A DNA stretch of 64,000 bases, taken from Mesostigma viride. Lineage: Eukaryota > Streptophyta > Mesostigmatophyceae > Mesostigmatales > Mesostigmataceae. The stretch is taken from assembly GCA_009746045.1 (NCBI GenBank), contig RPFO01000123.1, positions 1,750,542 through 1,814,541 on the forward strand, in the 5' to 3' direction. This document shows, piece by piece, positions 5,819 to 62,634 of this stretch; the stretch's first letter is position 1; each line of letters opens with the position of its first letter. Position numbers and translations under genes: made by a program. The notes below the pieces were generated by a model. It was not told the DNA's origin. It searched no databases and worked only from the letters and a program-made list of their open reading frames with translations.

Positions 5819-5823
5819 TGTAA
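5819..5823 (+). terminator. Possible SEC13 polyadenylation signal TGTAA
   Basis: TGTAA lies 140 bp past the SEC13 stop codon. In chlorophyte algae this pentamer replaces AATAAA, so its position here fits the end of the SEC13 transcript. A five-base match alone is weak. Confidence 0.4.
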
Positions 5824-6424: not shown

Positions 6425-6470
6425 TATCAAAGAGGCAACCAGCGCAGGCCAGAAATCTGGATAATCTAGA
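6425..6470 (+). repeat. Family C dispersed repeat, short fragment
   Basis: The motif CAACCAGCGCAGGCCAGAAA followed by an AT-rich end is shared with the longer copies at 16935-17165 and, inverted, 58690-58895. Confidence 0.75.
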
Positions 6471-6473
6471 CCA

Positions 6474-18856: not shown

Positions 18857-18949
18857 CTAGTTACGGGGCTTGCTGACCACTGCGCCCGCCTCCTTCACGG
18901 CGCTGACTTCCCAGTTGTGGATGCGGCCGAAACGGTACATCTCAAGCAA
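18857..18949 (-). CDS. PAN2: PAN2 exon 33 (C-terminus)
   Basis: 30 codons plus stop TAG. LLEMYRFGRIHNWEVSAV matches human VLKGLYEKGRKMDWKVP. Acceptor TTGCGCCCAG, phase 0. Confidence 0.92.
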   Translation of the reverse strand: MLEMYRFGRIHNWEVSAVKEAGAVVSKPRN

Positions 18950-21900: not shown

Positions 21901-24900
21901 GAGCATACCAAACATAACACGTTCGCTGATTAAAGCGTGGTGCAAAGTCCACCCTGAGACAGAAAGCCGAACAGAAACAAGCATGTTACCAGAGAAGTAT
22001 TCGACATGGACCCCAGCAAAGCAAGGAGGCAGTGGCCACAAGATAGTTGAGTGGGGGTCTTAAAAGCTTGGAAGCTGTTTGTCCCACTGCTGAAGCGTTA
22101 GAGGTCGTTCGACGTGCAATGATTTCATTAAAAGAAGTGGGAGAAGAGGGAGGAAAGGGAGGGGAGGAACAAGGCGGCCTACCCCCAGCAGAAGAGGGAG
22201 GAAAGGGAGGGGAGGAACAAGGCGGCCTACCCCCAGCAGAAGAGAGAGGAGAGGGAGGGGAGGAACAAGGCAGCCTACCCACAGCAGAAGAGGGAGGAAA
22301 GGGAGGGGAGGAACAAGGCGGCCTACCACCAGCAGAAGAGAGAGGAGAGGGAGGGGAGGAACAAGGCGGGCTACCCACAGCAGAAGAGGGAGGAAAGGGA
22401 GGGGAGGAACAAGGCGGCCTACCCCCAGCAGAAGAGGGAGGAAAGGGAGGGGAGGAACAAGGCGGCTTACTCCCAGCAGAAGAGGGAGGAAAGGGAGGGG
22501 AGGAACAAGGCGGCTTACTCCCAGCAGAAGAGGGAGGAAAGGGAGGGGAGGAACAAGGCGGCTTACTCCCAGCAGGTACGCTGCAAGGAAGCGGAGCGAG
22601 ATCTTGCGCTGGCGTTTGAGGCGGAAGAGCTCCACCGTGTCGACCACCTGCCAGGAAGTAGGGGCAGGCAGGCATGCCAGGGAGGCAGGGCAGGCACATG
22701 GGATGTGGCAGTGCAGGTGCTCAACGCACGTAAGGCACAGACAAGCGTGAAGGCGCACAGGTAGCCGCCCATGACACTCTAGGTAGGCAGAGACGGCACG
22801 CACATGATGCGCAAGGATGGCCAATCGAAGGCAGCCGCTATGGGTATGAGCGTGGCGTCTACGCAAGGGGGCGATGGAGAGCGCGTGTGTGAGCGTGAAC
22901 AAGTGGCACACATGGGCACCAGCTATCCCATTAAGTCCTCCATGCCATGCTATCCCATTAAGTCCTCCATGCCAGCATGGCCAGCTGCTGAGGTTCCTCA
23001 ATGCCCCTATGGCTTGTGGTCGCAGGAGATGCATAGTTATATGATAACTGGCGTACACATTTGTTTCTACAAGGAGGGATCTGGCCTCGATGGAATCCCA
23101 CACAGCACCCATCCCCCCAAACGGAACAACCAGCACGCATATGCTGTGATCGGCGAAACACGCAGTAGGGAGCGGCCCACCTGCTCCGGCGGCACGACGA
23201 CATTCAGCCCACCTGCTCCGGCGGCACGACGACGTTGATCATGTTGAAGTCCTTCTTGAGGCCGTGGCCGACAAACTTGCAGCCGTGGTCCACCTGCCCA
23301 CAGTCCACGCAGCCGTCCATTACTGGCACGTCAGTATGCGTGCCCCATTAATGCTTGTGCGCCCCATGAGCTTGTGCGTGTGGCATGTCAGCACACATGA
23401 TTTGCGAGACCCACACATCAGCGATGGTGGGCCGAAGGGGCAGTGCCAAAGAAGGCCGCTGCCGCTTTGGTCATGCAGAAACCTCCCGCCGTCCATGAGT
23501 CATCAGGTACAGCACACCATGGGGCGGCACGAGCTCCCACCCTGTACCATACCCTCGGCGAGAGACATCACCTGCACAGAGCGTAGTAGTTGCTTCACTA
23601 TGCCGAGCAGCGCTGGTGGGGTTGGGTCGTCGTCGGCGCGCCAGGTAGTGCCGCTTGATGTCCTAGGGGGGCCTCTTACCAGATAGCGCCGCTTGATGTA
23701 ATGATTAGCCCTCTTACCAGATAGCGCCGCTTGATGTAATGATTAGCCCTGTTACCAGATAGCGCTGCTTGATGTCATGATTAGCCCTGTTACCAGATAG
23801 CGCCGCTTGATGTAATGATTAGCCCTGTTACCAGATAGTGCCGCTTGATGTAATGATTAGCCCTGTTACCAGATAGCGCCGCTTGATGTAATGATTAGCC
23901 CTGTTACCAGATAGCGCCGCTTGATGTAATGATTAGCCCTGTTACCAGATAGCGCCGCTTGATGTCATGATTCGCCCTGTTACCAGGTAGCGCTGCTTGA
24001 TGTAATGATAAGCCCTGTTACCAGATAGCGCCGCTTGATGTAATGATTAGCCCTGTTACCAGATACCGCCGCTTGATGTAATGATTAGCCCTCTTACCAG
24101 ATAGCGCCGCTTGATGTAGTGATTAGCCCTGTTACCAGATAGCGCCGCTTGATGTAATGATTAGCCCTGTTACCAGGTAGCGCCGCTTGATGTAATGATT
24201 AGGCCTGTTACCAGCTAGCGCCGCTTGATGTAATGATTCGCCCTGTTACCAGATAGCGCCGCTTGATGTAATGATTAGCCCTCTTACCAGGAAGCGCAGC
24301 TTGATGTAGGCTTTCTTGAGCGTGGTGATGTGGTGCTTGGAGACGGCCGGATCCTGCGGGCAGGCAGCACCCCATGAATGGCAAAGAAGAGCAAAGTGAG
24401 GGATGGTGATAGGGTACCAACACGCCGTCCTTGGGGCTTGTCTGAATTCGTGGTTGGAAGATCACTTCCAGTTCAAGTCGTCCTTGTACCCGTGAGGGAC
24501 GGGCAAGACTTGCAAGCCATGAGGAACGGACACCGTGGGCCACGTGCTGATACGCCGGCACCCGAGGACCACTTCACGTCGCTGACAGCAAGGCAACGAG
24601 TCACTACACCCCGTTGTCCGTTCCGGATATCTTAACTCTTACTTTATATTTTCTTTGAAAGTGTATTAATACCGCCAATGTTTTAGTTATTGGTGCGGTC
24701 ACACGTGCCCATGGGCAACAAAGCCACGCATGCCCATGGCACGCTGAAGCCACCAGGCATCATCCACACACGCTGTGACCTATACGGTTGTCTTTGCACG
24801 TGTTTACGGGCAGTACGCGAAGCGGCGTCACCTCACCAGGTTGCCATGGCATTTAGTTATGATTCATATGCCATGGCATTTAGTTATGATTCGCACCGAA

Positions 24901-27900
24901 GAGACAACGGTTATAACCATCCCCCCCCCCCTCACCAGGTCTTCATGCCCCCCCCCTCCTCACCAGGTCTCCATCCCCCCCCCCTCACCAGGTCTCCATG
25001 CTCCAGCCCCGAGAACCGCGTGAGATAGTCATAGACCGGCTCCACGCTAGACACGTAGTCGTCGATGACGCAGACAAGTTTCTGCGGACCGCTGCCCCGC
25101 ACCTGGCAGGGACAGGCAGGTGGGGCGCGCGACCAAGAGGGAACCGTCACGGGGCATGGGGCAAAGTGAGATGTGCGGGTGTAGGGGCATCACAGTTGTG
25201 CAAAACAGCCCAAAAGAGGCCGGCCGCCATGAAGGGGTTCAGGTTTATGATCACAGGTGGCGCCCGGTGACCACAAACCACAGTCAGGATGCGCTATACA
25301 GGTCTAGGACAGAAACCCAACCTGCTGAACTCAACACCCCGCCAGCTCATCATAATGGAAGGTAAGGGTGCACCGTCAGAAAGTGCAACGTCTCCCCAAA
25401 GCCTCAAGTGTGGGAATAGGGACATCCCTTGCCCAGAGGGAAGAGGGACACGGTAAGCAAATGATGATCCGCTGCCGAAGCACGCGCTGATGCAAGCATC
25501 AGCTCGCTGGTCCCTCCGCATTAACGGGCAAGTTGCAGCGGAATGCGCAAGTTGCGGTGGCAGCTCTGGTCCATGGGTTAGCGCGCACGCTAGCTTCCGC
25601 TCGCTCTTACCACGGCACACCGCGCACGCGCATGTCTGCACAAACCACACACCGCGTGCGCACGCCACCACTGCACCAAGATGCCTGCATGCTGCTACCA
25701 CGGCATGGCTGCCCAAACATCCACATGGCAGCCCAGCGGGAGCGCACTTCATGCTTGCGCACGTACCACGCTCACGCGCGCAAGGCCTAGCCGGCTGGGG
25801 CGTGTCGTTACCCGCTCGCCCTCCTCTGTGATGTGCTGGTGGCCGACAGCCATGGCATGTAATAGAGAGAAGGCGGTCATACGACGACCCAAACAACAAG
25901 TGGCCGCAGGGGATCATCCAGGCAGCAAGCACCCCAGCAGGCGAGGGAGCAGCGGTCGATGCCAAAGCGTGCCAGGCAGCAGCATCAGCAGCAGGAGCGC
26001 AGCAGCCGAGGGACAACCCACCAAACCCAGATACAGCATCAACACCAGCAGCAAGTGTCAGTCTTCAGAAGAAAGGTTGGATGCAGCCTCGGAGTGAGGT
26101 ATAGGGAATCTGGCGACAGCGGTGGGGTGAGGGGATTAGGCAGTGTGGGCGGCCAGCAAAGAACATTCCAAGCACATATCGTCTCTATGCGCGCCCCTAG
26201 GAAAGCTCTACTACCGTGCTTGAGCCTTATAACTTGACTCTTATTCTCCGCAGCCAGCACACAGATGGTGGGCCTTGCCTCTAACTATCCCATCCGACTG
26301 CAGCCAGTAGAAAGATGGTGGGCCATCGATGGGCCACCATTTTGCACGCCATCACAACACGTTGTCCGTTCTGTCACACCGCCAGCAAAAGGACCGCCAG
26401 GATATCAGCGATAGGACCGGTAGGATATTCGTGATAGGACCGGTAGGATATTTGTGATAGGACCGGTATGATATTTGTGATAGGACCGCTAGGACATCCG
26501 CGATCCTAAGGCTCTGCACGCCAACACCAGTGGTCATGCCCAAGACGGGTGGTCACAAGACGGGTGGTCATGCCCAAGACGGGTGGTCATGCCCAAGACG
26601 GGTGGTCACAAGACGGGTGGTCATGCCCAAGACGGGTGGTCATGCCCAAGACGGGTGGCCACAAGACGGGTGGTCATGCCCAAGACGGGTGGCCATGCCC
26701 AAGACGGGTGGTCACAAGACGGGTGGTCACGCCCAAGACGGGTGGTCATGCCCAAGACAGGTGGTCATGCCCAAGACGGGTGGCCATGCCCAAGACGGGT
26801 GGTCATGCCCAAGACGAGTGGTCATGCCCAAGACGGGTGGTCATGCACAAGACGGGTGGTCATGCCCAAGACGGGTGGTCACAAGACGGGTGGTCATGCC
26901 CAAGACGGGTGGTCATGCCCAAGACGGGTGGTCATGCCCAAGACGGGTGGTCATGCCCAAGACGGGTGGTCATGCACAAGACGGGTGGTCACAAGACGGG
27001 TGGTCATGCCCAAGACGGGTGGCCACAAGACGGGTGGTCATGCACAAGACGGGTGGTCATGCACAAGACGGGTGGTCATGCCCAAGACGGGTGGCCACAA
27101 GACGGGTGGTCATGCCCAAGACGGGTGGTCATGCCCAACACGGGTGGTCACAAGACGGGTGGTCATGCACAAGACGGGTGGCCACAAGACGGGTGGTCAT
27201 GCCCAAGACGGGTGGTCATGCCCAACACGGGTGGTCACAAGACGGGTGGTCATGCACAAGACGGGTGGCCATGCCCAAGACGGATGGTCATGCCCAAGAC
27301 GGGTGGTCATGCCCAAGACGGGTGGTCATGCCCAAGACGGGTGGCCACAAGACGGGTGGTCATGCCCAAGACGGGTGGTCATGCCCAAGACGGGTGGTCA
27401 CAAGACGGGTGGTCACGCCCAAGACGGGTGGTCATGCCCAAGACAGGTGGTCATGCCCAAGACGGGTGGCCACAAGACGGGTGGTCATGCCCAAGACGGG
27501 TGGCCATGCCCAAGACGGGTGGTCATGCACAAGACGGGTGGTCACAAGACGGGTGGTCATGCCCAAGACGGGTGGCCACAAGACGGGTGGTCATGCACAA
27601 GACGGGTGGTCATGCACAAGACGGGTGGTCATGCCCAAGACGGGTGGCCACAAGACGGGTGGTCATGCCCAAGACGGGTGGTCATGCCCAACACGGGTGG
27701 TCACAAGACGGGTGGTCATGCACAAGACGGGTGGCCATGCCCAAGACGGATGGTCATGCCCAAGACGGGTGGTCATGCCCAAGACGGGTGGCCATGCCCA
27801 AGACGGGTGGCCATGCACAAGACGGGTGGTCATGCCCAAGACGGGTGGTCACAAGACGGGTGGTCATGCACAAGACGGGTAGTCATGCCCAACACGGGTG

Positions 27901-30900
27901 GTCATGCCCAAGACGGGTGGTCATGCCCAAGACGGGTGGTCATGCCCAAGACGGGTGGTCACGCCCAAGACGGGTGGCCACAAGACGGGTGGTCATGCCC
28001 AAGACGGGTGGCCATGCACAAGACGGGTGGTCATGCACAAGACGGGTGGTCATGCCCAAGACGGGTGGTCATGCCCAAGACGGGTGGTCACAAGACGGGT
28101 GGTCATGCCCAAGACGGGTGGTCACAAGACGGGTGGTCATGCCCAAGACGGGTGGTCACAAGACGGGTGGTCATGCCCAAGACGGATGGTCATGCCCAAG
28201 ACGGGTGATCATGCCCAAGACGGGTGGTCATGCCCAAGACGGGTGGTCACAAGACGGGTGGTCACGCCCAAGACGGGTGGTCATGCCCAAGACGGGTGGT
28301 CACGCCCAAGACGGGTGGTCATGCCCAAGACGGGTGGTCACAAGACGGGTGGTCATGCCCAAGACGGGTGGTCATGCCCAAGACGGATGGTCATGCACAA
28401 GACGGGTGGCCATGCCCAAGACGGGTGGTCACGCCCAAGACGGGTGGCCATGCCCAAGACGGGTGGTCATGCCCAAGACGGGTGGTCACGCCCAAGACGG
28501 GTGGCCATGCCCAAGACGGGTGGTCATGCCCAAGACGGGTGGTCATGCCCAAGACGGGTGGTCATGCCCAAGACGGGTGGCCATGCCCAAGACGGGTGGT
28601 CATGCCCAAGGCGGGTGGTCATGCCCAAGACGGGTGGCCATGCTGGCATCCGCCTTCCGATCCTGTTGGGCCGTTCGCATGTCCTGTGTAGCCCTGTGGC
28701 AGGCATCCCCAAGGGGTGGCCAGTCAAGCAGCAGCTACCCGCCCCACGGTGCCCGTTCCATCGGTCACGACTAGAGCACAGAGACGCCTGCCATTTGGCT
28801 GCTGCCCACCTTCATCTGCTGTTCTGCCGGTACAGGGGGCGCATGAACATAATGCATGCGCGTGTGTGCCAGGCTTTGTATGCAAAACCGCTCGTTTAGG
28901 AGAACAGTTCCATCATTGGTTCTCAATCTAGGGAAAGTTAGATGGTTCCACGTTCCATATTTCCAGCAGGCATACAGCGGCGTGGACGCCATACGCACCG
29001 TGCGCGGCGGCGTGAGCGCCACAAACTCGGCGTCAATGCCCAGCAACGTGTCCTGCGGGATTACGCATACGTGAGCGCGTGGTAAAGTAGCATACAGTGA
29101 TGAGAAATGAGCACCCAGCAACGTGTTCTGCAAGGTTGATGCATGACACATACTCGTATCTAAGCATGTGGCTACAGGAGCACATGATGTGGTTATGCAC
29201 GAGAACCCACCAACGTCTCCTGCAGCATCGCCAACGGGGGCCATGCGGCCATGGACAGGATGCCGACCGGCCGGCAAAAGTACGGCACACACCATACAGC
29301 AAGTTCCCGTATAATGACACGAAATGGTGTAATAACGGTATAATAACACGAAACATGCAATGGTATGATGACACGTAATGGTATAATAACATGTAATGGT
29401 ATAATAACACGTAATAACATGGTATAATAACACGAAACATGTAATGGTATAATGACACGTCATGGTATAATAACACGTAATAATATGGTATAAAAACACG
29501 AAACATGTAATGGTATGATGACACGTAATGGTATAATAACACGTAATAATATGGTATAATAACACGAAACATGTAATGGTATAATGACACGTCATGGTAT
29601 AATAACACGTAATAACATGGTATAATAACATGAAACATGGTGCCTATAATATAAACATGGTACGTATATAAACATGGTGCGTATAATAACACGAAACATG
29701 GTGCCTTTGGACATGACACGGCAGGGTTACAGTCAAGCACCCCGCGAATACGGCACCATATAAGGGACCACCCACCCGCATGGCCCGGCACATTGCCCAG
29801 CACAGGTACAAGCCTGAATGTGGCAAGCAAGGACAAGGCAAGCACGGATGGATGAATGCAATGGCGTGCCGGGTAGGCTGGGTGCCCAGACCCTGACCCT
29901 GACCTGAGCGCATCGCCCTTGTGCGGGCCACCTGGCAAAAAGGTGCACCCGCACAGCCCTGCCCGCCGCAGACGCGCTGGGCAGCAGCAACCCACACACG
30001 GGTGCTCCCCGGGGGAAGTGGTGGACATCGTTTGCTGCAGGAGCGTGGCAGGCAGCCGGGGCGACCCACTGGCAATCATCATCGTACGTATTAGGCTTAC
30101 ACCTTCTGCAAGGGCGACGTCCATTCACTGAATGAGGCATCCGGGTACTTCGTTTAAAACAAATGGACGCAATGGGATCGAATGATGCCATGTTCGAATA
30201 ACAGTACTAGGACACCCGTTGGATAGGAGCCCGCCCGGGCTAGCCGGCTAGGCACCCCGCCTATGACCTCCTGGATGATACCAACCATAGTTGACCATGG
30301 CAGATACAGCAACCGGGAGCAACTGGGCCAAGACGTATCCGCCGCCCGCCTGCCCAGTACCTACCGGCCCAATCGTGTCGAGCCCCCACTTGAACGGCAC
30401 AAAGGTCGGCTTGTTGGCGCGGAACCGCTGGCTCTGGGACAGGCCAGGGTCCGCCACGTAACGCCAGAACAGTTCATCGGGGATGGGGGAGGAGCGCGCC
30501 GGGCGCGGCGGGGTGGGGGGGGACGCCGCCACCAGTTCACTCGACCGGCCCGCGGGTGTGCTGGCATCCGCATGCCCTGCCCCGGCTGGGGTGCCGATCG
30601 CTGATGACCCTGAATGGGCGGGCGTATCGTGGCAGCTGTCGACGTCACCCATGCCGTGCACGACCAGCTGGGAGTAGGATTGCGCGACGTCCACGCGCGT
30701 GTAGTGCAGAAGGCATGGGACTTTGAGGCCGCCATGGAAGTTGACCTGCGCACAAGGATGTACGCGGGGATGCATTGATCCATGCACGAGCCCATCAGCG
30801 CGGCCATCCACCCATTTCAGAGATGTTGTCAGCTCAAATGCTGCAAGTGAGGCACCCTACGATGTGCACATGCATGGAGCCTTTCCTTGGGAGACGGGTC

Positions 30901-33900
30901 GCCGCGACCCTCGCAAGGTTCACCACCAGGGAGGGGGCAGCAACGTCAGGCACGACCGTGCCCCAAGTTTCCAGTCCGCACATTCTCGTGGAACGGCTGA
31001 ATGGCTGAGTAAGGAAACCTCTTTAATAGAGTAAGAGTCAGCACCACAACGTGGTAAAGCCACCCTGGAAAACATCGCCGCATGATGTCCCTGTCCAACC
31101 TCCGCGAGAGGTCCCTGGCCGCCCGCCCTCACCTGCATGCATGGAGATCACACGGAGGCCGTGCTCGCGTGGTAGGGGGTACTAAAGCCTACTCAGGGCT
31201 GCTAAAGGCTAGTACAGGCTAGTAGATGCTAGTTGCAACAGTTTATGCTAACACCTGCAAGCAGGATCATTGACTCACCACTTCGCTCGCTGGCACCGGA
31301 GCCACCGTGAAGTCGTTGAAGAGCACCCACTGCCACGACGGCAGCGTGCTGCTGCTGTCGCTGCCAGGTGGCGCCGGCGTGGCGCCGCCCCCTTTGCTCG
31401 CGCTGCCAAACTCTTCGCTGCTGCGGCTGCGGCGTGGCGCCTTGAGTGGCGTGAACATGCCGGCGTCGGACGAGGCAGCGCCAGCGGTGGAGGAGGAAGA
31501 TGACGGCCCACCAGAAGAGGAGGAAGAGGAGGAAAACGGATGGGAACCGGGCGCTGAGCTGGCCTCCGTCCCCTCTGCCTCTCTCTCAGGTTCGGCTCCA
31601 GCGGACGTGCCGGCGGCGGCAGACACTGCGGCGGAGGCAGCATTGGCGGCCGCAGCCACGGAGGACACCCTGGGGGCTGAGCTGGCGGGCGCGGCGGCAG
31701 GCACGGGAGTGTACGGGTTACCGGGGGTGGGTGGGTGGCCGGGGGCGGGGGTGTTGGGGGCGATGCCACCCTTGCGGGCGCTGACTGCGTAGATGGGGGG
31801 TACCTGCCGTGTGGGCGCAAGTAAAAAAGAAAGGAAAGAATGTAAGTGTGGGCTGACATAGGCTGACAGTTGGGCAAGCAAGCAGCATTGTCAGACAGGT
31901 GGCGGTTGGGCAAGCAACAGACTGGTGGCATGGGTAGTGTGCACACGTCAGGACGTTGCTTGATGCACACGTCGTACTATGAACTGATGCGGATGAACTA
32001 ACAAGCATGTGACTGCGGATATAGTGACCTGATGCCCACAGTGTCTTGTCATGCATGTGGCTGCTGCCACAACATGCAACTGCATGCAGTGCGTGGGAGA
32101 GACGTGCAAGCAGCACTGGAAACCAAACACGGCTTCACGGCGTCAGAAGACAAACACGGCTTCACGGCTTCAGGAGAAGGAACATGTGCTGGGCACGCCC
32201 ATGTGCCACAATGAGCCACCACCAACAGTCACCACGGGACTCATGTTGACCAGCAACCTACAGTGACCTGCCACCTGCAGTGACCACGGGACTCACATTG
32301 ACCAGCAACCTACCGTCACCCGCCACCTACAGTGACCACGGGACTCACATTGACCAGCGACACCAGGTGGCCCAGCGCGCCATCCCGCGACTCGTCCTCC
32401 TGCGCCGCCAAGTGGACAAACGGGGCGCCGCCATGTCAGCGACAAGGCAGAAGGCATGCCAGGGAATGGAAGCACACAATCCACTCCCTTGGACGAGGGG
32501 TTGCACCCATGAAGCCCAGAACAAGAAAGACAGACGGTTAGCAGCGACAAGAAAGGCGCTCCGTGGCAGCTGCACATGTGGGTCCGCCATGTCATGGATG
32601 AAGTGCCGATAGCCCCCAATGCCATCCAGGCTAGCAGCAAGGGCATCAGTGGCAGAGACCAGCAACCATGCGAGCCTCGCTGCTTAAGCAGGAGGATTAG
32701 AAACCATAAGCCCCGTCATAAGCCCCATTTGTCTTCCAAAGTCGCTTCTGGAACACAGAAAGTACCTCTGAAACATCTACCCACAAAAATACCCATGGGG
32801 ACATGGTTGCTAGGAAAAAGGATAATGTCTATGACTGGCGCCTCACCTCATTGATGTACGCCAAAAGCGACGTGAGCATGTACATGGCTCGGCTGGGGGG
32901 GACGTCACACGTGGCAATAGAAGAGGGGGACGTCGCACGTGGCAATGAAAGAGGGAAAGAGGGTGGAGAAGGGGTGTGATAACCACGCGGTCAGGTCGTC
33001 AAGGGTAATGATATGGAGTGGCAGAGTCTGGATGCAGCACACTTGGCTGGGTTCCGACCGTGCAAGGCATGAAATGGGATACAGTTTTCTGCCCATGAAC
33101 AGTAACCAGTTGGCATTATGGAACGATATAAATAAGGCCATTTGCGATGGGCCGACGTAACCATTATGAAACACCCACCGTAGGGGCGCCATCATCATGG
33201 GGGGAGGGCATGCTGTATATATCAAATAACCATTATGAAACACCCACCGTAGGGGCGCCACCATCATGGGGGGAGGGCATGCTGTATACATCAAATAACC
33301 ATTATGAAACACCCACCGTAAGGGCGCCACCATCATGGGGGGAGGGCATGCTGTATATATCAAATAACCATTATGAAACACCCACCGTAGGGGCGCCACC
33401 ATCATGGGGGGAGGGCATGCTGTATACATCAAATAACCATTATGAAACACCCACCGTAGGGGCGCCACCATCATGGGGGGAGGGCATGCTGTATATATCA
33501 AATAACCATTATGAAACACCCACCGTAGGGGCGCCACCATCATGGGGGGAGGGCATGCTGTATACATCAAATAACCATTATGAAACACCCACCGTAAGGG
33601 CGCCACCATCATGGGGGAGGGCATGCTGTATATATCAAATAACCATTATGAAACACCCACCGTAGGGGCGCCACCATCATGGGGGGAGGGCATGCTGTAT
33701 ATATCAAATAACCATTATGAAACACCCACCGTAGGGGCGCCACCATCATGGGGGGAGGGCATGCTGTATATATCAAATAACCATTATGAAACACCCACCG
33801 TAGGGGCGCCACCATCATGGGGGGAGGGCATGCTGTATACATCAAATAACCATTATGAAACACCCACCGTAGGGGCGCCACCATCATGGGGGGAGGGCAT

Positions 33901-39900: not shown

Positions 39901-40567
39901 CTGACTACTTTTAAGGTTGTAATGTTTGCATGCAGTGCTTTCCATGCAAAGTTTAGCCTCAAAATTCATCACTTGTACTAGCCACCTCTAGAAATCACGC
40001 TGACTGAACAGGCTAACTCGTCGTGGACGTATCTAATTGGCTGCGAAATATTAGCTCCAGAAGATTTGTTTTGTGGCCATGCCTAGGTTGGGGGGATGCC
40101 CCCCCCCATTGGGACTGAAGTGCGACCTTTTGGCTGGGCCGGGTGCACTTTTGGCGGGGCGCGCCAGTTGGCGCCAAAGTCCTGGCGCCGGGTGCCGAAG
40201 GTTACCTACGGTCCACCTTAATGTGCAAGGTGACTGCATTACCATTCTCTAGCAGGATCTCACAGCCAACTCAGAATAGCTGGGTCACCAAATGGGTGGC
40301 GGCCTGAGAGAGGGCACAGCACCCCCCAGCGTTACACGGGTGGGCAGGGGAGCGGTCTCCCTATTGCGGCAACTCGGCTACGACAAACCCTTATCGGAAC
40401 ATGTGCACGCAGGACGTACCCATATCACAATCCCACTTATGCTACCAAAGATGGACAAAAAGATCTGCCACATGGAGGGGGGTGATATCCTCCGTATCTT
40501 CCCCCACCCCCAACATCACACACCACCAGCAGCAGCCGCAGCCGCCGCCGCTGCCGCCGCCGCCACA

Positions 40568-40598
<31 letters not shown>

Positions 40599-43500
40599 CA
40601 ACATTAACAACAATAAGCACCTGCTCGAGTAGAAACCGGCTGAAGCTTTGGATGCGCCGTGCCAGCCGCTTTTCCTGCATGGGCGAGGCATGGGCCAGGG
40701 TGTTGGTGGCCGCCGGATGATGAGGCAGGGGAGAGCATGAGAGTGCGGGCGAAGGAGGCTGCCAGGGGATAGAGATAATTAATAAGCGCGTGAATGCGTC
40801 ATGTGAGCACAAGAAAGAAAAGAGGTTTACAAAAGTGCCATTTCAAACAGTAGAAGCAAGAGAGAGAGCTCGAGGGAGATCTCTGTGCCGTGGGAAAGAC
40901 GAGGGAAAACTCTCACGAATACGCAGATGGTACGGTCCGAAGCATTTGCATGGGCGCGGGGAGAATGGGCAGGGAGGGGCACAGGCTGCAAGCAGAAGCG
41001 TGGCGGCGCGGGCAGAATGGGCAGGGCTGGGCACGGGCTGCAAGCAGAAGCGTGGCGGCGCAGGCAGAATGGGCAGGGCTGGGCACGGGCTGCAAGGAGA
41101 AGCGTGACGGCGCAGGCAGTGATGGTTGTGGGCATCGGGGAGGGGACATTGGCACAAAGGGATGGTGCACATGCAGCAATTTGACTACTGACATCTCCCA
41201 GGCCATATTGGTCCGATGCGTCGTCCAGCAGACCCAACGCGGCCGCCTCGCGGATTTGTGCCAGCGCACGCAGGATGTTGCTGGCCTGCGGTCATCGCGG
41301 TCCAGAGGAGGAGGCAACAGGGGGGGATGGGGCGGAAAAGTCAGGGGAATGGAGCTGTTAGCACTGAGATGTGTGCAAGGAGAGTAACAAGAATAGGGCT
41401 CGGGGCCGTGGAGGAACATGCCCAGGGAATAGGATAGCAGGAGAGCTTCAGGTAATTTAAACTGCCTTTGAAAACTCCTCTACATAGCCTCTCATGCCTG
41501 CGACAGCCACGGGATAACAAAGGGAACAAACGCCCTCTGTAGGCTGGCGATGGCAACGGGGTGGGCACGCGCAACCTCCAAGCCAGAGAGGGCAGAAACA
41601 CTGAGAGTGCAGCAACCACTCCGGTGGCTTGCACGACTTATCACTACATGACATACAAGGCAAGGCGGGTGGCTGGCTGTCATGCATCATACCGTGTGAT
41701 CAAACACCGCGGGCAAGATGCCAAACGCAGAGTGTCGCACTAATGGGCGTGGGCTGTCCCTGCATGACTGCAAGTGTCAGGTCCTGCAATCCATGCCTGT
41801 TCACAGCTCCATGCGTGAAAGGTACTCAGCTCAGTCCACTACCCGCCCCACTGGCAGAACTCCACTAATTGCCAGATGCCCGCGGTGCCAGCTGTGCACG
41901 TCACTTCGTGCCCATAGTCACGTCCCTGGCAACCTTGAACTTATGTTCAAGGTTGTGTGCGCCTACCCTGCATATATCTGTCTCATATATGTCCCATGGA
42001 GTACCCGGGGGGGATGCTGTACTGGGTGTCGCGGACGCACGTACTGGCAGGAGCTCTATGGGCTGTCCTTCTTTGTCTTGTGTTCTGTCACCCCTGTGTT
42101 GATCACCCCTGCTTCTACCAAGGTCCCCCCCCCCCCCTTGTTCTCTCCCCCCCCCCCCATCCTGGCTGATGGTTGCCAGGAAAGGTGTGCGATGATGCCA
42201 TCGTCCCCCCTCCCCCCCCCCTTTGTTCTCTCTCCCCCCCCCCCCTCCTGGCTGATGGTTGCCAGGAAAGGTGTGCGATGATGCCATCCTTGCATGCACC
42301 ACCAGAATTTTGTCTTGCCCAGTAGACCGTTTCAGCAGTGCATGATATATCACTTAAACAACAAAGCATGCGTACACAATCTACAGAGTACAGCGATTCC
42401 CTTCATAACTACTCTATTTCCTGGCGCCACAGCTCATCTGCTGGCAGACGCATCACCCACCTGGCAGGTGCCGGCTCGCGAGATGGTCAGCATGTGCATG
42501 AGGAAGCCCAGCTCGCAGCTGTGGGGGGGAAGCATCAGGCAGGATTACCGCCAAGCAGCAACCAAGCACCAACCAAGCACCAACCAAGCACCCAATCAAG
42601 CACAAGCAAGCACCTAAGCACAACCTCCAGCCGGTGAATAGAACCGGTCTCAAGTCAACCATGAAACAGGACCGCGCTAATTTACGTGCAGTGCGCAGTA
42701 GGCAGACAATACATGCGGCCGCAAGGGCGTCTAGCAATAAAACGCGCCTTGCCTGCGTGATGGTCCCCATCGCCAGCGAAATCAGGAGCTGAGGAAGGAT
42801 GGCACGCGGCGCTATATGGGACTGGAGCGTACAGGGGACTTGGGCGCTACATGGCAATCATCCATGGCATGAGGAAATGGGTTAATGGAACGCACACTCT
42901 GCCAAGGTAAGCCAAACGAACACTATTGCAGCTGCCACCCACAGCCCACGGGCAGCTGCTGCCGAACAACGCCCCTCTACCTATCCAGGCTGCCGACACC
43001 ACCCACAAATGCCATTCACAGGACCGACGTATGGCCCTTGCCCAGGGACACGGGCGCAAGGTGATGGCACACATGGTGGGAGGAGGTCATGCCTGTGGCG
43101 TGCTGGTTACGTACGTCAGGCAAAACTCCCGTTCGCAGATGTGGGACAAGACTGCCTCTCGCAGTGCGGGGATGAAGAACAGGATCTGGGGGAAAGGGGG
43201 GCGCGTGGGCAATCGTTAGAGCACGGTGGTGGGCGCGTGGGCAATCGTTAGAGCACGGTGGTGGGCGCGTGGGCAATCGTTAGAGCACGGTGGTGGGCGC
43301 GTGGGCAACCGTTAGAGCACGGTGGTGGGCGCGTGGGCAACCGTTAGAGCACGGTGGTGGGCGCGTGGGCAACCGTTAGAGCACGGTGGTGGGCGCGTGG
43401 GCAACCGTTAGAGCACGGTGGTGGGCGCGTGGGCAACCGTTAGAGCACGGTGGTGGGCGCGTGGGCAATCGTTAGAGCACGGTGGTGGGCGCGTGGGCAA

Positions 43501-46500
43501 CCGTTAGAGCACGGTGGTGGGCGCGTGGGCAACCGTTAGAGCACGGTGGTGGGCGCGTGGGCAACCGTTAGAGCACGGTGGTGGGCGCGTGGGCAACCGT
43601 TAGAGCACGGTGGTGGGCGCGTGGGCAACCGTTAGAGCACGGTGGTGGGCGCGTGGGCAATCGTTAGAGCACGGTGGTGGGCGCGTGGGCAACCGTTAGA
43701 GCACGGTGGTGGGCGCGTGGGCAATCGTTAGAGCACGGTGGTGGGCGCGTGGGCAATCGTTAGAGCACGGTGGTGGGCGCGTGGGCAACCGTTAGAGCAC
43801 GGTGGTGGGCGCGTGGGCAATCGTTCGAGCACGGTGGTGGGCGCATGGGCAACCGTTCGAGCACGGTGGTGGGCGCGTGGGCAACCGTTAGAGCACGGTG
43901 GTGGGCGCGTGGGCAACCGTTAGAGCACGGTGGTGGGCGCGTGGGCAATCGTTAGAGCACGGTGGTGGGCGCGTGGGCAACCGTTAGAGCACGGTGGTGG
44001 GCACGTGGGCAACCGTTCGAGCACGGTGGTGGGCGCGTGGGCAACCGTTCGAGCACGGTGGTGGTGAGTAAACGGGAAAGGTTGCGTACGCGCCAGGTTC
44101 GAGTGTTGGCCCAGGTTGCGTGTGAGCCCGGTTCGAGGGGTGGTGGAGGCAGGTTGCGTGTGGGCCCGGTTCAAGGGGTGGAGGCAGGTTGCGTGTGGGC
44201 CCGGTTCAAGGGGTGGTGGAGGCAGTTTGCGTGTGGGCCCGGTTCAAGGGGTGGTAGAGGCAGATTGCGTGTGGGCCCGGTTCAAGGGGTAGTGGAGGCA
44301 AAGTGTGCGATGCAACCATGGAGTCGACACATTCAGCGGCAGCCAACAACAGCATACGTCAGGGCACAACAACGGCAACCTACGTTCCATCCGCCCCCCT
44401 TTTCACCTGCCACCCCCCTCGCATCTCAACTTTGAAACAAGGTTACAGCAAGTGTCCCTGGGGCATCTCGGTCGTTAGGACCTGGCGAAAGTGCTATGCT
44501 GCCTTACGTTGCCCCATCACAAAAAAAGGCAAGAATGCATACAAAACCAGCCGTCAGGATTGCCCTGACTGAAATCTTCACTGCCACTTTTGCAAACCTC
44601 ACGCACACAGGCATGTGGGAAGACCAGCCTTGCGGTAATACCGGCATGAAATACGTGCGATGCGAGAGATTATACTTGCACACAGGAGTTGCCGCAGAGG
44701 AGGCGTTACCTGCATCAGCGAGTTGCAGTAGCAGAGGGGGATGTCGTTCTCCAGCCCTGCAAAGCGTGTCTTGTTGTAGTAGCTGAAGTCAAACTCCTGT
44801 GGAGCCAGCATCAAGAGGAAAACGATGAGGCCAAGGGGCAAAGCGATATTCACGTTAGTTGGAGAAATGGGTGCAAGTGGCGGGCATAGCGCAAGCAACT
44901 TGGCGTCCAGTGGGGAGTGCTGCTCATTCCAGAGGGCAGTCAGAGTAACCCTAATACGAGCGCATGGAAAACCAAGTGTGACCCCGGGATGCGACGGGGA
45001 GGAGCCGAAGGAAACAAATTTCAAGCTGCTCCCATTGGTCGTAGCGACTAGGAGGCATAGCAGAAGAAAGGAATGAGGAGGAGAGACAGTACGGCGGCTG
45101 GAGAAGTGGGGGACGGCAGGCTGCGCTTTGCTTGTAAGGCCCGGGGAAAGAGGTAGGTGGAATGGGCGGGATGCAGCAAACTCTGTGCCACTTGTTAGCG
45201 CAGGAGACAGCCATCCCAAGAACGATGTCATAGGTGTAAGGCACGTCTGTTGACATAGTTGTCATAGTTCCCTGTTTTGCCATCACGGCGCACCCCAGAC
45301 CAGAAGGACCTTCCTCGTGCTTTAGGGAAAGCCTGACACTGAAAACCCCCAAGGCGAAAGGAAGGCACACTGATGGAAGCTATCACACTCGAGGATTGCC
45401 TTGCGACGTGGGAGGGGGTATGACAGCAGTACACATGGTCAGGGCAAGGGGGAAAAGGCAAACAACATCTTTCTACAAAATACCAACAAGGCCAAAAAAA
45501 AGGGACTTTGGTTACCTTTTGACGCCTGAAAGCAAAGCACAGCATGACAATTTTTTTCCAAAAAGGATCCAAATGAGTAGTCAGACGTGTGTTCTGTGCC
45601 TGAATGACACCGAACACTTCAGGCCCAGACCTCAACGATGACGTCCATTCCCAAACTAAAGCTTCTCGTCGACAAGAATGTCACTACCCAAGACCTTGTA
45701 ACCCCGCCCCAAACTTGAAGCTGGTGTTCCAAGTAACATGTTCTCGTCGACATCAACAACACTGCGCAAGACATTGCCCCCCACCTCAAACTTGAAGCTG
45801 GTGATGGAGCTCTGGATCTCCACATGGCGATACAGCTTGGGGATCCTCTTGCCCCTGCCATCTGCCCCGTGCGGCCCATCCCCCTCCTGCTCCCCCATGC
45901 TGCTGCGACGGGAGGGGGGACCACCCCCCCGCCCGCCCCCCTTGCCCCCATCCTTGGTGGCCGCGCTTCGAATGCGGCTGTTCCGCAGCTGCCAGGACTT
46001 GCGCGTGGCCTCACCAGGTGGCGCCGTGCGGCTGCCAGAGGGGACCAAAAGCTCAATTCCCTTGTCAGCACCTTGATCCATTCTCCAACGTGCTTTTATT
46101 CACGGGACTATACTGCAGGGCTGACAGGGAAAGCAAGGGGACACTGGCATCTGCCACCAGCCAGACATGACATGACTGACTGGTCAGCTCCTCCTGACCT
46201 GTTCACTTCTCCACAGGAAAAAATGGCTTCGCCACTAGCGCAACGCTAATACCATTTATCACCTTAGGAGACTTGGGCAGAGCAGCAGGATCGGATAGCA
46301 TGCTGAAATGACATCGGCTGCAGGCTCACCATGGCAACGTACATAAGGAACTAATGAACCCTTCAAATGCCATATCCGCCAAAAAGTACCTGGCGGAGAT
46401 GTTTATAATACAACATTCGCCACCTTGACTGTCACAAAGGGAGTCGATAACCAGCAACTTGACAACCACCAACATGTAGACATGGGAGCTTGGCTGCCGG

Positions 46501-49500
46501 GCGATCAGGTTTTGTGCACCCAGATACCCACGTCCGAGTTGCTGATGCCCAAACAAAGAATATCCCGCCACCCAAACACCCCTTGCAGCACAACCTTAGT
46601 TTCATGGCGTAGAGGAAAGGTCTCTTGTACGCAGGTAATTAGCAAGGGAATACACAAGCACGCTAACTGGAAACCTGCGGCATGCGCCCCACCTTCATCC
46701 CCACCTCCGGCCCCCACTTTATCCCCCCCTTCACCCCCCCCTCGCCCCCCCCTTCCCCCCCCTTCACCCCTCCCCATCAACCCCCCATTCCCCCCCCCCT
46801 CCCCTTCCCCAGCATACCTGAAGAAGGGGTTGTCCACGTAACCCACGAAGTCAATTGTCTTGATCTTGCCCGCCAGGTCAGCGGGGATGGTCCGCGGCGG
46901 CTGCCCCACGTGATACAGTGATGTTGGCTCGTAGGCTGACAGTGGCAGCTCCATTGACAGGAGTACACTGGGCAGGTTGGCCCCGGTAAAGGGGTCGCCC
47001 TCGGCCAGGGACACGCAGGGGACCATTTCCGGCATCTGGGGGTGACGGGGGACCGTGATGGCGGCGTTGACGGCAGAGATGGCCAAGGGGCAACGCGATG
47101 ACGGACGTATGACGCAAGAACATCACGGCACAGAGCCACGTGTGTCAGTTTTCTGCGTGCATGCTCGTGATAGTGGGGGGAGGCGTCCATAAAGGGTGCC
47201 TGCGCACGTCACGTGGAAGGCAGCGAGCAGCAACTCCTGCCGTGACGCGAGCGTCGTTGACAGATGGGGAAGATAACAACGACCGCTAGGCCCCAACCGC
47301 CCATCCCACTCAGTTGTAACCTCAGGTAAAGAAACCAGCATGCCAGCGTACGCGTGCTGGAATCATGAACAAAAATCGCATGCTTGTCTCATCGCGGTTG
47401 CCATGGTCCCAGGCAGATGAGCCACTGCCTTCAGCTCCCACCACTTACCCACCGGTCTACCCAACCCACCCAAAGTAGTCAGTTCCCACAATCTACCCTG
47501 TCCACGTCAACTCCCTTATGTACCCGCCTTGAGCGCCCCGGACTCAACATTCTTGAGTGAGAACAGGTGAGGGAGTTCAACACCATGCCTGGCTGGTCCG
47601 GCCGCCAGCATACCTCGGACGGCACGGAGATCAGGTTGGCACGCGGCTCGTTGGTGGCGGCCCACAGGTGGAAGAACCCACCCTCGTCTGCAAAGCCGAT
47701 GCTCTCGCCACTGCTGCTGACGTCACAGCAGAGCATCGCGTCACCCTCGCAGTCCACCTGGAGGCGGGGGGGGGGGGGGGAGAGGGGGGAGAGCAGCCAG
47801 GCACAATGGTGTGCGCCCCAGGGGCGTTCATATCCTGTAGCGTGGATAATTTCTTGCGTTCTTAAGTGCTCTGGAACCTCGGAAACAATCACGCCCCCCG
47901 CCTCCGCAATTATTGTGGCTATCCCCCCCCCCACACACACACAGCCAGATAATGCCCATCACTTGTCCGGGGCCGGCGGAGCATGGAGGTATCCGTTTCC
48001 TAGTTCATGCTTACAGATCGCGGCACCATCTCCTGCTTGGGCAGCATCACTTGCGTGGGCGATGGCAAGGTGTCCGCCCGGCGCAAGCACATGCGCATCA
48101 GTACATGCGCAGCCGGCATGCGAGCCACAAGAATAAATCCAAGCGCGCACATACCGTGCATACCTTGCAGTGCATACTACCCCCGACCCCAACCACTTCC
48201 CGACTACGTACTTATGAGGGTGGTACCCCCGACCCCAACCACTTCCCGACTACTTATGAGGGTAGTACAACCACCTGCCGCAACCCTTACCAGCGGCGCA
48301 TGTCGATGTCGATGGATCCTGACTGGGGGGTGTGGGTGAGCCCTGGGTATGCCCCTAAAACCCCTCAGGCTCCCGGAGAGGCCTGTATATTCTCCCAAGC
48401 CGGTGCCTCTGAATGAGTTCCAAGCCTATCTGTGGCCACTGAACCATGGGGGAGCCCTACTGCACCCGCATTGCTTTTGCTATGTCGAAGCTTTATTGCA
48501 CCCACAGGGGATGCCGGATCGTTTCGCCCGGGTCAGATTGTGCACCCTGTGGCATGCCTGTGGCATGAGGGAGGGGGGGGTTCTCTGCCCCCTGCCCGCT
48601 GTGCACACACAGGGATTAAAGGCACTTTGGTGCTCCGTGACTCCCCAACGGGAGCACGTGTCTAATTAATCAATTATTGTTCCTGACAAGAGGATGCGTG
48701 CCAGCGGCAGTCTCAGCCCTTGTGGCACTTAGAACAAGCAAGTTGGGGCAAAGTTGCCCAATGCCACACCAGCATGGGTCACGGAACACCCCATGGCGCG
48801 GCACACATGCCAGTGGCACCTCGCATCCACCTGGTCCATCGGACGTACCACACATGGGATGATAGCAATCTTCTGACTGCCAAGCATAGAACAGCCAACA
48901 CCCACATGAAACATCCCGTGTGGCTGACTGCGATTGCCTGCCAGCACACACCTGATACGTCCCGTGTAAAAGAATTGTAGTGGGCCAGTTCGCACCTGGA
49001 ATGTCCCATCGTAGTTATGCTACCAAACGTGCGACAGCCAGCACCCACCTGGAACGTCTTGAAGTTGGCCCCCGGGCTCTGCACATCCTCCAGCATAACT
49101 GACCCTGTGGCAGACGCCACCAGAAGCATGCTTGAGAACTTGGGCAGGAAACGGAGCATCTGGCGAGGGTGGAACAGTGACAACGGGGGGGGGGGATGGC
49201 AACGAGGGGACCATGAAAAGGCGGCGAAAGAGGGGGGTGGGGGATGAAGGGGCAGGGGTGGAGAAGGGCAATGAAATCCATGCTGGATGATTTAGGGAGG
49301 GGCAAATGCAAATAGCAACAAACAGGGTCCAAAAGCGTGCTTGTGCAGCCATGCATGGCATCAAGAGGGCGATGACCGTCGACTACATGACTCCTAATGA
49401 TCAACATGAGACAGCAGAATTTTGTGGGATGGCAGGCATGCCCAGGTGCAAACTTGACAGACGCCCTAGAAATGCTCATGAGACAGGAGATCAGAATAAA

Positions 49501-52500
49501 GCTGAAAAAAAGCTGAGTAGAGCAGGTGGCGCCCCTCAATGAATCACACCGGCGCGGTTTTGAGGTAACAACACGCAGTGGCGGCACCCACCATGGGCCC
49601 TGGGCTGAACGGCAGGTGTGTCAACGCGCGCGCCACCGACCGGATGTCAAACACCTGCCGCGAGACACGAGCGCACCCAGGCAGGGGGGCGCATGGCATC
49701 CGGACCGCACGGGAGGGGGGCAGCACGCCAGCACAAGAGCGGTACACAGCGCAGCGATAGTGGCCACATAGCGGGAATATGCAATATTAGACCTAAGAAA
49801 AAATCCATGACCTCATAGAATAGAAGGCCTAACCACCTGGTTTTGACTCCCTGGCTTCATTCACAGCCTGAGGTCGGGTAGCAGCAACCAGCGCAAGTGT
49901 GAATGACGGGCCATTTGAATGTGAATGCCTCTAATTCAACCCACTAACAGCTGACGACAGGATTGCCATGAAAGGGTCCAAGGCTGTGCATAAAATCTGC
50001 AACTGGCACGCATACTTCACAAAGCCAAAGAGCTCACTAAACTCACTGCCACAATAAGGCAGGCAAGGAGCAGATGGGTTCCTGCCCACGTGTCCTATTC
50101 AAGGCGGCATGCTTGCCTCAACCGAACAAGCGACAGCACACCATATTTGGCACAAACTCCTTCGAGTTAATGTAGAGGCACCTGTTGCGATAAACATTAC
50201 ACACGTGATTGAATAAAACGTATAAAAGCTTTTAAACATGGTAACCTTGATGCCATATTCATGATGCCATATTCATGATGCCGTATTCATGATGCCATAT
50301 TCATGATGCCATATTCATGATGCCATATTCATGATGCCATATTCATGATGCCATATTCATGATGCCATATTCATGATGCCATATTCATGATGCCATATTC
50401 ATGATGCCATATTCATGATGCCATATTCACGCCGTCTACCTTCTCACATGACAGATTCATGCCATATTCATGCCATCTTCTATGTCAACCACATACAAAA
50501 CACTTAAGAAAGGGCGCACTTGCACCGGGCTGGCAATCCTGTGGAGAATACTCAAGCCCTAAGGGACTCGGCACTGGAGGGGAACTTCAGGGGGACACAC
50601 CAATGGCCCAAGGGGAGACAGGGAGACATGTCCAGGACCAACCCAAGGGCCACAGGGGGGCGGGGGTGCACCGCAGCACTCTACTCAGTGCCTACTGGTA
50701 ACTCTTCATCTAGCGCAGCGTCCAGGTGACGTGGCTGCCATGTGCCGCGCCCGCTCACCTTGATGAGGTGGTCCACGTAGCTGATGCCCATGTGCTGGAT
50801 GATGCCAGATGTCACAAGCAGGTCGCCCTTGACGTCCAGCGCCGCCACCGGGCCTGCACCATGCGATGTACATTAATATACAGAGCGGAAGCCAGGTGAA
50901 ACAGATGTAGCAAGTGCGCAAGTGTTGGCATGGGTGCAGGCCGCGCGCGCAGGCATCACACACTGACATGGTGGGCATGGCAGGTCAAAGAGAAGGAGCA
51001 GCGGAGTGGATCGCTGCCTTGGCATCCAAAGGAGCTGGGATACACAGGCCTGGAGGCATCACAAATATGGCACTCGGCCCTCACCCATCCTATAAGTGTA
51101 GCACTCGTCACTCACCCACCTCATCAGTACAGCACTCGTCATGTGGGCATCGCTCTGGCACTCGCCACTCACCCATGTGGGCGTCCAGCGAGCTCTCCCG
51201 TCGTAGGCTGCGCGGGTCGTGCAGAGTCACTTTGCCACTACTGCTGCCGCACGCGAGGTAGTGGCCCCCGCGACGCATCACCGTCACGTTTTCCACCTCC
51301 GAGTTCTGTCGGACGGCACATTTATGCATAGCAGGGGATAGAGGGCACAAAGCGTGCATGCTATTCACGGACTACCGCAGTAAGAGCAACTTACTTGGGT
51401 GAATGTTTGCATATACGTGTGAAATTCAGGAAACCAATAAGGTCAAATTTTGTGGGTACTGAGCACAAGGCATGAGGACAGGGTAGCCTCAGTCTGTTAC
51501 ATCATGCAGTTATGCACTTGAAATGGATACTACAAGTCGACAACAAGGGGTTGCGGATGGAATGTATCATGGGACGCCTGCAACGTGCTCCACTGATGAC
51601 CCATCCAGGTGCCGTACGACATAACAGGGGCCGTGCCTGGGCCGTGCCTACATGAATGGATACACCCACAGGATGCCAAGTACGAACCGAGAACTGACGC
51701 ATCTCGCCACCTAACACCCGGCAACCCTTCCTCCCCAGCGCTCGGCGTACGCTTACTACCCAGCTATTCTTGCAACGAGACACACTTACCACCTACTAAA
51801 TCTAGCAAATGCAACAAATGCATGCACATGCCATAAAATACAACTCCACTCAGAAAATTAAGTGGAGCACATGCCACCAATTAACTCTAAACACTGCGCC
51901 TGATTCCAAATGCTATGGCACGCCTTACCACCGCATAGTGCCAGCACAAGCCACAGCAGTTCTAGACGCGCTCACCACCGCATGCAGCTGCTGCGTGACG
52001 AGGTCGAAGGAGGACAGCGAGGGCCCCAGGTGGCCCACCGCCACGCTGGAGCTCATGTAGTCCATCGTCTGCCACTCCAGCGCGGTGAAGTCGCCCGCGG
52101 GCTCACTGGAGGGGCAAGGGGGAAAAACATGATGGGGCGTGGCCACAGGGGGCGGCCACAGCAAACACATGTGGTGCATGCCAAGCCATTGATTACACAG
52201 CAGGCATGGCAACAGGGTTGGGCCACAGGGCGCGGTAGGCACGGCAGGCCACGGGGGCAGCAAGCGACAGCTAGGGCAAGCATAGGAATGAAGTGAACAG
52301 GGGGGTGGCGTCCTGAATCAATAAACTATTTAGTGGCAGTGCGTGATGCAGGGCAGAAAGGGAAAGGGGGGATGGACCGCTTACTGGCACCATCGCTACA
52401 TTGATACACTGCTAGTGCCAGCACCGTCATTAACCCCCCCACACACACACACACAGGTTTAAGATTGGGTCCGGCCGACCCAGGGCTGCGATCTTAAACC

Positions 52501-54546: not shown

Positions 54547-55094
54547 CTCAGGGGCTAGCAAAAAATCAACCTGTATTTTACCATCAACCGACTAATTCCT
54601 TCCTGGAAATATCGGCTGCAGGGCTCTTCAAACTTCCGCCATAGCCATGCACGTGTTTACGTCCACAGACGGGTGAGGCAGCAGAGAGCGAGCGAGGAAA
54701 ACGTCGGGACATGATCACGAGCGAAATAAATGATAAATCTCAGAGCGACCGTACTATACTGGCTTTGGAAAATGGAACACACGTCATCGAAGCCAAGAAA
54801 CTAGGGAGATACTTGGCTGGGCGCGCTGCCAGGCGGTGGAATAAAACACACTGCAGCGACGCTCTCGTATTGCGATGCCACGCGTGCTGTCAGTGGAATG
54901 AACTGACTGACTGACTGACGCGTGCTGCCAGTTGCCACTGCTTATGAGCCACTGCCCCGGTCCTTGCCAGGTGCGGCTCCCGCGGGCGTTGTAGCTTCAT
55001 CTGCCAAGTGCACAATTCAACCGCCATTACCCATAACACCCCATCAGTGGCGTGTTTATCGGGTTGGGCACGTTCCCGTGCACACCGATTATCC
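54547..55094. promoter_or_regulatory. Head-to-head spacer between PAN2 and DapL
   Basis: 548 bp separate the PAN2 ATG (minus) from the DapL ATG (plus), so both promoters must lie here or overlap. The only repeat seen is (TGAC)n at 54901-54922. No core element is obvious. Confidence 0.55.
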
Positions 55095-59045: not shown

Positions 59046-59970
59046 GATGGATGGATGGATGGATGGATGGATGGATGGACGGACGGATGGATGGATGGAT
59101 GGATGGATGGATGGATGGATGGATGGATGGATGGATGGATGGATGGATGGATGGATGGATGGATGGATGGATGGATGGATGGATGGATGGATGGATGGAT
59201 GGATGGATGGATGGATGGATGGATGGATGGATGGATGGATGGATGGATGGATGGATGGATGGATGGATGGATGGATGGATGGATGGATGGATGGATGGAT
59301 GGATGGATGGATGGATGGATGGATGGATGGATGGATGGATGGATGGATGGATGGATGGATGGATGGATGGATGGATGGATGGATGGATGGATGGATGGAT
59401 GGATGGATGGATGGATGGATGGATGGATGGATGGATGGATGGATGGATGGATGGATGGATGGATGGATGGATGGATGGATGGATGGATGGATGGATGGAT
59501 GGATGGATGGATGGATGGATGGATGGATGGATGGATGGATGGATGGATGGATGGATGGATGGATGGATGGATGGATGGATGGATGGATGGATGGATGGAT
59601 GGATGGATGGATGGATGGATGGATGGATGGATGGATGGATGGATGGATGGATGGATGGATGGATGGATGGATGGATGGATGGATGGATGGATGGATGGAT
59701 GGATGGATGGATGGATGGATGGATGGATGGATGGATGGATGGATGGATGGATGGATGGATGGATGGATGGATGGATGGATGGATGGATGGATGGATGGAT
59801 GGATGGATGGATGGATGGATGGATGGATGGATGGATGGATGGATGGATGGATGGATGGATGGATGGATGGATGGATGGATGGATGGATGGATGGATGGAT
59901 GGATGGATGGATGGATGGATGGATGGATGGATGGATGGATGGATGGATGGATGGATGGATGGATGGATGG
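59046..59970. repeat. (ATGG)n array 1, about 230 units
   Basis: Nearly perfect tetranucleotide repeat with one GGACGGACGG variant near 59077. All MDGW/IHPS frames are artefacts. Confidence 0.98.
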
Positions 59971-62492: not shown

Positions 62493-62634
62493 GGGGCACA
62501 CAATCCTACCGGTCGAATCTATCTACAACATCAAGCCAACTCTATTCTAAGCTCTCTACCCTAGGGGTCCTGTCTAGCGTGCTTCCCGCGTGTTTGCAAA
62601 CGCGGGCGCTTCCCCACGCACTAGGAGTTAATTT

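Follow-up and report, generated by a model that had tools for sequence, protein, structure and literature searches.

Copies of exon ends at nine donors of a PAN2 gene

We analyzed a 64,000-nucleotide stretch of the Mesostigma viride genome (contig RPFO01000123.1; hereafter, the window), in which one gene carries copies of its exon ends and splice donors at the start of nine introns (Table 1). By its domains and protein matches, this gene is assigned to PAN2, the poly(A) nuclease that serves as the catalytic subunit of PAN2-PAN3. Pfam detected UCH_1 (6.9e-69), PAN2_N, and RNase_T domains, and a search of the PDB returned a PAN2 chain (9qtu, 5e-65). The best among 45 proteins found, jgi/Mesvir1/Mv13978-RA.1 (hereafter P0001), whose label Mesvir1 we take to stand for Mesostigma viride, matched the gene exon by exon. 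The spliced 33-exon model, in which exon 26 spans 25767-25835, was identical to this protein at 1371/1371 residues. At exons 27-30, both P0001 and the PDB PAN2 sequence continue without a break over the first donor. As judged from these alignments, the conserved, annotated PAN2 protein uses the first, exon-proximal donor, and because its residues continue straight across that donor, the extra copies are intronic in the annotated model.

At 9/32 PAN2 donors, a duplication family had its 5′ edge within the last 50 exon bases, and the exon end and the GT continued as copies into the intron. These donors, of exons 4, 7, 10, 20, 22, 27, 28, 29, and 30, are exactly those named in a preliminary description of this DNA; the exon part of the unit, put there at 10 to 25 bp, was present at all nine but ranged from 3 to 24 bases. 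When each donor was aligned off-diagonal against the next 500 intron bases, junction-spanning copies were found after exons 4, 7, 10, 22, 27, 28, 29, and 30. The exon 20 copy begins 3 bases inside the exon, and exon 3 had a weak copy (score, 22). A second method, based on gapless duplication families with a complexity filter, detected 37 families in PAN2, of which 8 cross donors and 1 crosses an acceptor (exon 25).

Copy numbers were obtained with a 20-base test that covered eight of the exons, exon 20 being outside it. Including the exon's own copy, we counted 17 at exon 28, 9 at exon 30, 5 (degenerate) at exon 7, 4 at exon 27, 3 at exon 22, and 2 each at exons 4, 10, and 29. The smallest copy offsets at PAN2 donors were 25 to 77 bp. 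Tandem Repeats Finder (TRF) reported head-to-tail arrays with units in the minisatellite range (∼10 to 100 bp) at exons 4, 22, 27, 28, and 30; exons 7, 10, 20, and 29 carry duplications of two to five copies that are absent from the TRF table. At exon 7, five degraded donor-like copies lie at 0, +53, +97, +143, and +218, all with GT, the last one outside the family listed in Table 1. Across the PAN2 donor positions examined, GT was kept at 42/44 (8 of these being the exons' own), many with a good donor score; exon 10 and exon 22 each have one copy that lost it. Downstream in the exon 28 array, 13/16 copies have GTAACA, a weaker donor, versus GTAAGA. This shared GTAACA would fit a weakened decoy that spread through the array. 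The 3.3-kb stretch holding exons 27-30 had one full-length match in the genome, and the other 13/14 matches were 65 to 81% identical (the search skips simple repeats); for these four arrays, a local origin is supported by the sequence matches.

Table 1. Positions within the window of PAN2 and of repeats at its splice sites and in its introns
Feature	Positions	Strand	Donor base	Basis
PAN2 gene, 33 exons in model	about 18860..54546	minus		Pfam, PDB, protein P0001
Exon 4 donor family, 4 exon bases shared	51068..51176	minus	51172	
Exon 7 donor family, degenerate	48894..49058	minus	49048	
Exon 10 donor, two copies, offset 77	45702..45803	minus	45784	
Exon 20, two copies from 3 bases inside exon	35226..35279	minus	35276	
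Exon 22 donor, 52-bp unit, 3 copies, GT lost in third	32208..32361	minus	32348	
Exon 27 donor, 25-28-bp unit, 4 donor copies, one further off	24831..25000	minus	24988	
Exon 28 donor, 38-bp unit, 17 copies	23641..24309	minus	24287	
Exon 29 donor, two copies, offset 32, 24 exon bases	23175..23236	minus	23212	
Exon 30 donor, 48-bp unit, 9 copies	22133..22575	minus	22566	
Duplication across exon 25 acceptor (counter-example), mirror image of donor pattern	29039..29131	minus		alignment, gapless families
Mid-intron array, ∼19-bp units, ∼116 copies	26521..28643	minus		TRF, gapless families
Mid-intron array, 69-bp unit, 22 copies, without exon sequence	33158..34709	minus		TRF, gapless families
Array just upstream of exon 12 acceptor, 32-bp unit, 27 copies, without exon sequence	43196..44064	minus		TRF, gapless families

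Duplication edges at donors, acceptors, and other positions

In PAN2, the 9/32 donors with such edges compare with 1.3 expected from the edge density of introns (P = 1.1e-5, or 4e-4 with chance matches added). For acceptors, the count was 1/32 (exon 25) against 2.1 expected. These counts and those on 59 pooled donors use the corrected 33-exon model. Counts on 58 donors and 54 acceptors (strict rule, edge windows, intron swaps, and identity) use an earlier PAN2 model without exon 26 and without the acceptors of exons 1, 2, and 10, and with different starts for exons 15 and 20. Repeats elsewhere in the introns are plentiful: the statement in the preliminary description that no mid-intron unit stands out was not borne out, since 27/37 PAN2 families, including the longest, are intron-only. 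Such intron-only families were common, with 75 in 78 kb.

As a sample of other genes, 40/135 protein-kinase matches that covered part of the domain and lay in short open frames were selected by eye, with repeats disregarded. Splice sites at these loci were predicted by a fixed score rule (at least 7), a position rule, and an open-frame rule, which kept 27 donors and 25 acceptors and dropped donors at 13/40 and acceptors at 15/40 loci; the dropped sites with duplications include the donors of loci L029 and L035 and the acceptors of L037 and L061. Exon-tail copies are not confined to PAN2, and this small sample is above expectation: 8/27 kinase donors had them, whereas intron density predicts 1.9 (P = 0.00085) and adding chance matches raises the expectation to 2.6 (P = 0.0056); edges in the last 30 exon bases alone numbered 5 against 1.2 expected. 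Some of these copies include coding pieces (43 bases across the L055 donor and 37 exon bases at L046), and at L039, L046, and L065 the gapless match ends 4 to 7 bases short of the donor. Copies of exon heads in the upstream intron were found at 4/25 kinase acceptors against 1.4 expected (P = 0.052), and donors and acceptors did not differ (8/27 versus 4/25, Fisher P = 0.33). These acceptor-side counterparts lie at L033, L042 (where the gapless match begins 9 bases inside the exon), L044, and L067, with L037 and L061 outside the score rule.

PAN2 and the kinase loci were then pooled, each family being counted once by its 5′ edge. Edges marked 17/59 pooled donors, whereas 3.3 would be expected, or 4.8 once chance matches are added. 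They were concentrated in the last 30 exon bases, with 14 donors against 2.0 expected (∼7 to 9 edges per kb), whereas the first 30 intron bases held 3, with 2.0 expected; between 50 and 500 bases into the intron, the density was 1.17 per kb. Mirrored edges at pooled acceptors showed no peak (2 against 2.1 to 2.2 expected). Deep in exons, edges were nearly absent: none at 50 to 200 bases before donors (5.8 kb) and one at 50 to 200 bases after acceptors (5.6 kb). The preliminary description had proposed that duplication is anchored at donors. The excess at donors stands, but "donors only" hinges on PAN2, because the kinases show a borderline acceptor excess and no donor-acceptor difference.

Genome-wide, the strong donor 9-mer CAGGTGAGT was paired at a spacing of 12 to 42 bases in 59/2583 cases (2.3%), compared with 22/1831 (1.2%) for the reversed control; the Fisher P value of 0.0086 is overstated because the 59 pairs fall in 18 places (places were counted for the donor 9-mer alone). 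A dense cluster of CAGGTGAGT, partly a 34-bp tandem array, lies on the minus strand at G000:C2:491552-500569. We set aside a gene-free test of a 200-kb sample from contig C1: its ab initio exon chains were largely transposon-like by eye, and no donor statistics were drawn from it.

First-copy identity did not separate the two kinds of family, with medians of 0.94 for intron-only and 0.92 for donor families (Mann-Whitney P = 0.40). We dropped an earlier reading that donor families are older, since the first comparison had used unlike segments and the like-for-like test is the one just given. A near-perfect-identity filter left 0/58 donors against 0.97 expected, a filter too strict for multicopy arrays.

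Origin and persistence of the donor-crossing copies

The reading that we prefer, and to which we give about even credence, is ordinary short tandem duplication in place, in a repeat-rich genome, tolerated across donors and accompanied by a several-fold excess there. Unspliced genomic DNA would be duplicated where it stands at offsets of about 25 to 150 bp, most plausibly by replication slippage or by fill-in and end joining during break repair, and some duplications would later expand into minisatellite arrays. A unit that extends over a 5′ splice site would leave the original donor and its exon intact and first, so that the protein is unchanged and the intron takes up the extra copies. Within exons, duplications would be purged. 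Those crossing acceptors, which are fewer when PAN2 and the kinases are pooled, would presumably be disfavored since a working AG lands upstream of the real one. We infer both the repair mechanism and the selective filter. According to published reports, repeats make up 30.1% of intron space in M. viride strain NIES-296, where the mean intron is 1142 bp (PMC6947507), and small tandem duplications arise through polymerase alpha-primase fill-in at break ends followed by end joining (PMC8355091).

In all 12 donor-crossing families, exon sequence is joined to intron sequence in its genomic order, and nothing near-identical to the exon 27-30 arrays lies elsewhere; the copies therefore look like in-place duplication at the DNA level rather than an element that has spread. 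Reinsertion of RNA-templated (spliced) ends, a possibility raised in the preliminary description, is not favored by that order. A filter of this kind would explain both the near-empty exon interiors and the capacity of donors to carry copies.

Several results weigh against this reading or against the excess that it includes. The filter alone does not explain why donors stand several-fold above ordinary intron positions: a pure filter predicts edges at the intron rate, and the pooled donor count is too high for that. In simulation, the longer detectability of a copy whose partner is conserved in an exon gave only a 1.3-fold excess. PAN2 is, moreover, the gene that was picked for showing the pattern. 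The donor excess also weakens with a stricter overlap rule: when 8 bases were required on each side, pooled donors numbered 6/58 against 2.06 expected (P = 0.019) and acceptors 1/54, and kinase donors alone numbered 2/27 (P = 0.28). Because simulated detectability accounts for so little, and because the identities of donor and intron families are not detectably different, the excess looks real; it rests on small numbers, and its specificity for donors comes mainly from PAN2. What remains of the excess may come from additional births at donors or from copies being kept better there, and the data are compatible with either. Short DNA duplications may thus arise or persist at splice donors with unusual ease.

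A more specific proposal is that 5′ splice sites are true duplication hotspots, owing to DNA breakage or copying linked to transcription or splicing. The last 10 to 40 exon bases, the donor, and the intron start would then be duplicated repeatedly in M. viride, seeding minisatellites that lengthen introns genome-wide. We hold this proposal tentatively, as a possibility that is probably not correct. It draws on the donor excess in the kinases, on the peak of pooled edges in the last 30 exon bases rather than just downstream, on the raised frequency of paired donor 9-mers relative to the reversed control, and on donor families that are not detectably older than intron families. However, kinase acceptors are also raised and do not differ from donors, few kinase donors survive the strict rule, and the genome-wide excess of 9-mer pairs is less than 2-fold and confined to few places. 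Near-identical families also appear to be scarcer at donors: over the first 40 bp, identity of at least 99% was reached by 1/12 donor families versus 20/77 intron families, and identity of at least 95% by 3/12 versus 32/77.

Retention by selection, in which the extra donors would be useful in recruiting U1, in guarding against early polyadenylation, or in tuning splicing, appears unlikely to us. The GT retained at nearly all PAN2 donor positions, many with good scores, agrees with such a role; the weakening after GTAA of most downstream copies at exon 28 and the losses of GT at exons 10 and 22 do not.

Chance is similarly improbable and is disfavored: dense intron repeats would simply land on donors, and donor motifs would match cryptic donors. 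By repeat coverage, PAN2 donors are indeed not unusual, as 26.6% of PAN2 intron positions lie inside some repeated copy and 8/30 donors are crossed by the same rule. A swap of whole introns between loci, with exon tails kept, yielded one to two matches per 58 donors, and we took this as the chance figure; a partial swap that keeps the first 35 intron bases (three to five per 58) retains real short-offset copies. The corresponding acceptor swap, with the last 35 intron bases kept, gave 0/54 matches. When families were counted by their 5′ edge, however, only 1732/61,617 intron positions (2.8%) resembled a crossed donor, versus 12/58 real donors (P = 6.5e-8) and, for the kinases alone, 4/27 (P = 0.0065). 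An assembly artifact is very unlikely, given that the copies differ among themselves, that other contigs show events of this kind, and that the published NIES-296 assembly (441.8 Mb), presumably identical to this 439.9-Mb assembly, used PacBio reads and optical maps.

Related systems and other features of the window

Introner elements are a single sequence found as scattered copies across numerous introns. They share with the PAN2 repeats the tie between repeats and introns, but the units at exons 27-30 are local: rather than recurring in many introns, that stretch has its single full-length match in the genome. The preliminary description had also stated that no such system was described. In the titles and abstracts of open-access literature, we found no report of donor-anchored minisatellites, nor of the form with many donors and the first donor retained, and the terms "minisatellite" and "splice" are absent from the accessible text of both M. 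viride genome papers; the Limnomonas genome paper contributed nothing further. Published work does, however, describe tandem repeats located at exon-intron boundaries as well as tandem duplications that cross them.

Human minisatellites or internal tandem repeats at exon-intron boundaries (PMC2812944) resemble the present case in their ∼30-bp tandem units at boundaries; they differ among recent human paralogs and give rise to new introns or alternative exons, whereas in PAN2 nine donors are involved and the annotated protein uses the first. Intron gain by tandem duplication (the AGGT model; potato RdRp, PMC4974935) is likewise based on a short tandem duplication that extends over the junction of exon and intron. 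There, the new intron is formed from the sites of two copies, whereas the acceptor of the PAN2 intron lies outside the duplicated stretch. At exons 27-30, the ones checked, donor and acceptor did not come from different copies; the exon 28 array, for example, ends at 23641, and the exon 29 acceptor, at ∼23293, is outside it. The duplications made by fill-in and end joining at breaks (PMC8355091) are similar in being short, tandem, and free of mobile elements; the abstract of that paper is silent on splice donors.

If the excess holds genome-wide, it would provide a route for introns to lengthen by taking up sequence of their own exons, and a natural way of testing for DNA breakage tied to splicing. 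A streptophyte alga whose introns are long, and of which two strains have been sequenced, would allow intron growth and the birth of minisatellites to be measured directly. Even in the ordinary reading, copies of exon tails and decoy donors within introns can mislead gene prediction.

Two further observations concern the loci sampled outside the window. A run of 22 similar kinase matches (G000:C1107:651917-1310254) lies on one strand, mostly 15 to 40 kb apart and mostly in frames of >1000 amino acids; from its layout, it may be a gene-family expansion or an integrated element. Three CCT/TCP1 exon matches with equal scores occur on both G000:C1641:60944-67934 and C887:341605-349664. This pair is possibly two haplotypes and could allow alleles to be compared for their intron arrays.

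Within the window, PAN2 is divergent from a single-exon gene that starts at ∼55095 on the plus strand, with ∼550 bp between them (54546-55100); we take this neighbor to resemble LL-diaminopimelate aminotransferase. Farther along, long and nearly pure tetranucleotide arrays occupy 59046-59970 (GATG, 231 copies) and 61277-62493 (TGGA, 305 copies). At the other end, positions 4986-7823 hold a plus-strand WD40 exon, presumably SEC13-like, followed by transposon-like sequence that is also present in the contig C1 sample.

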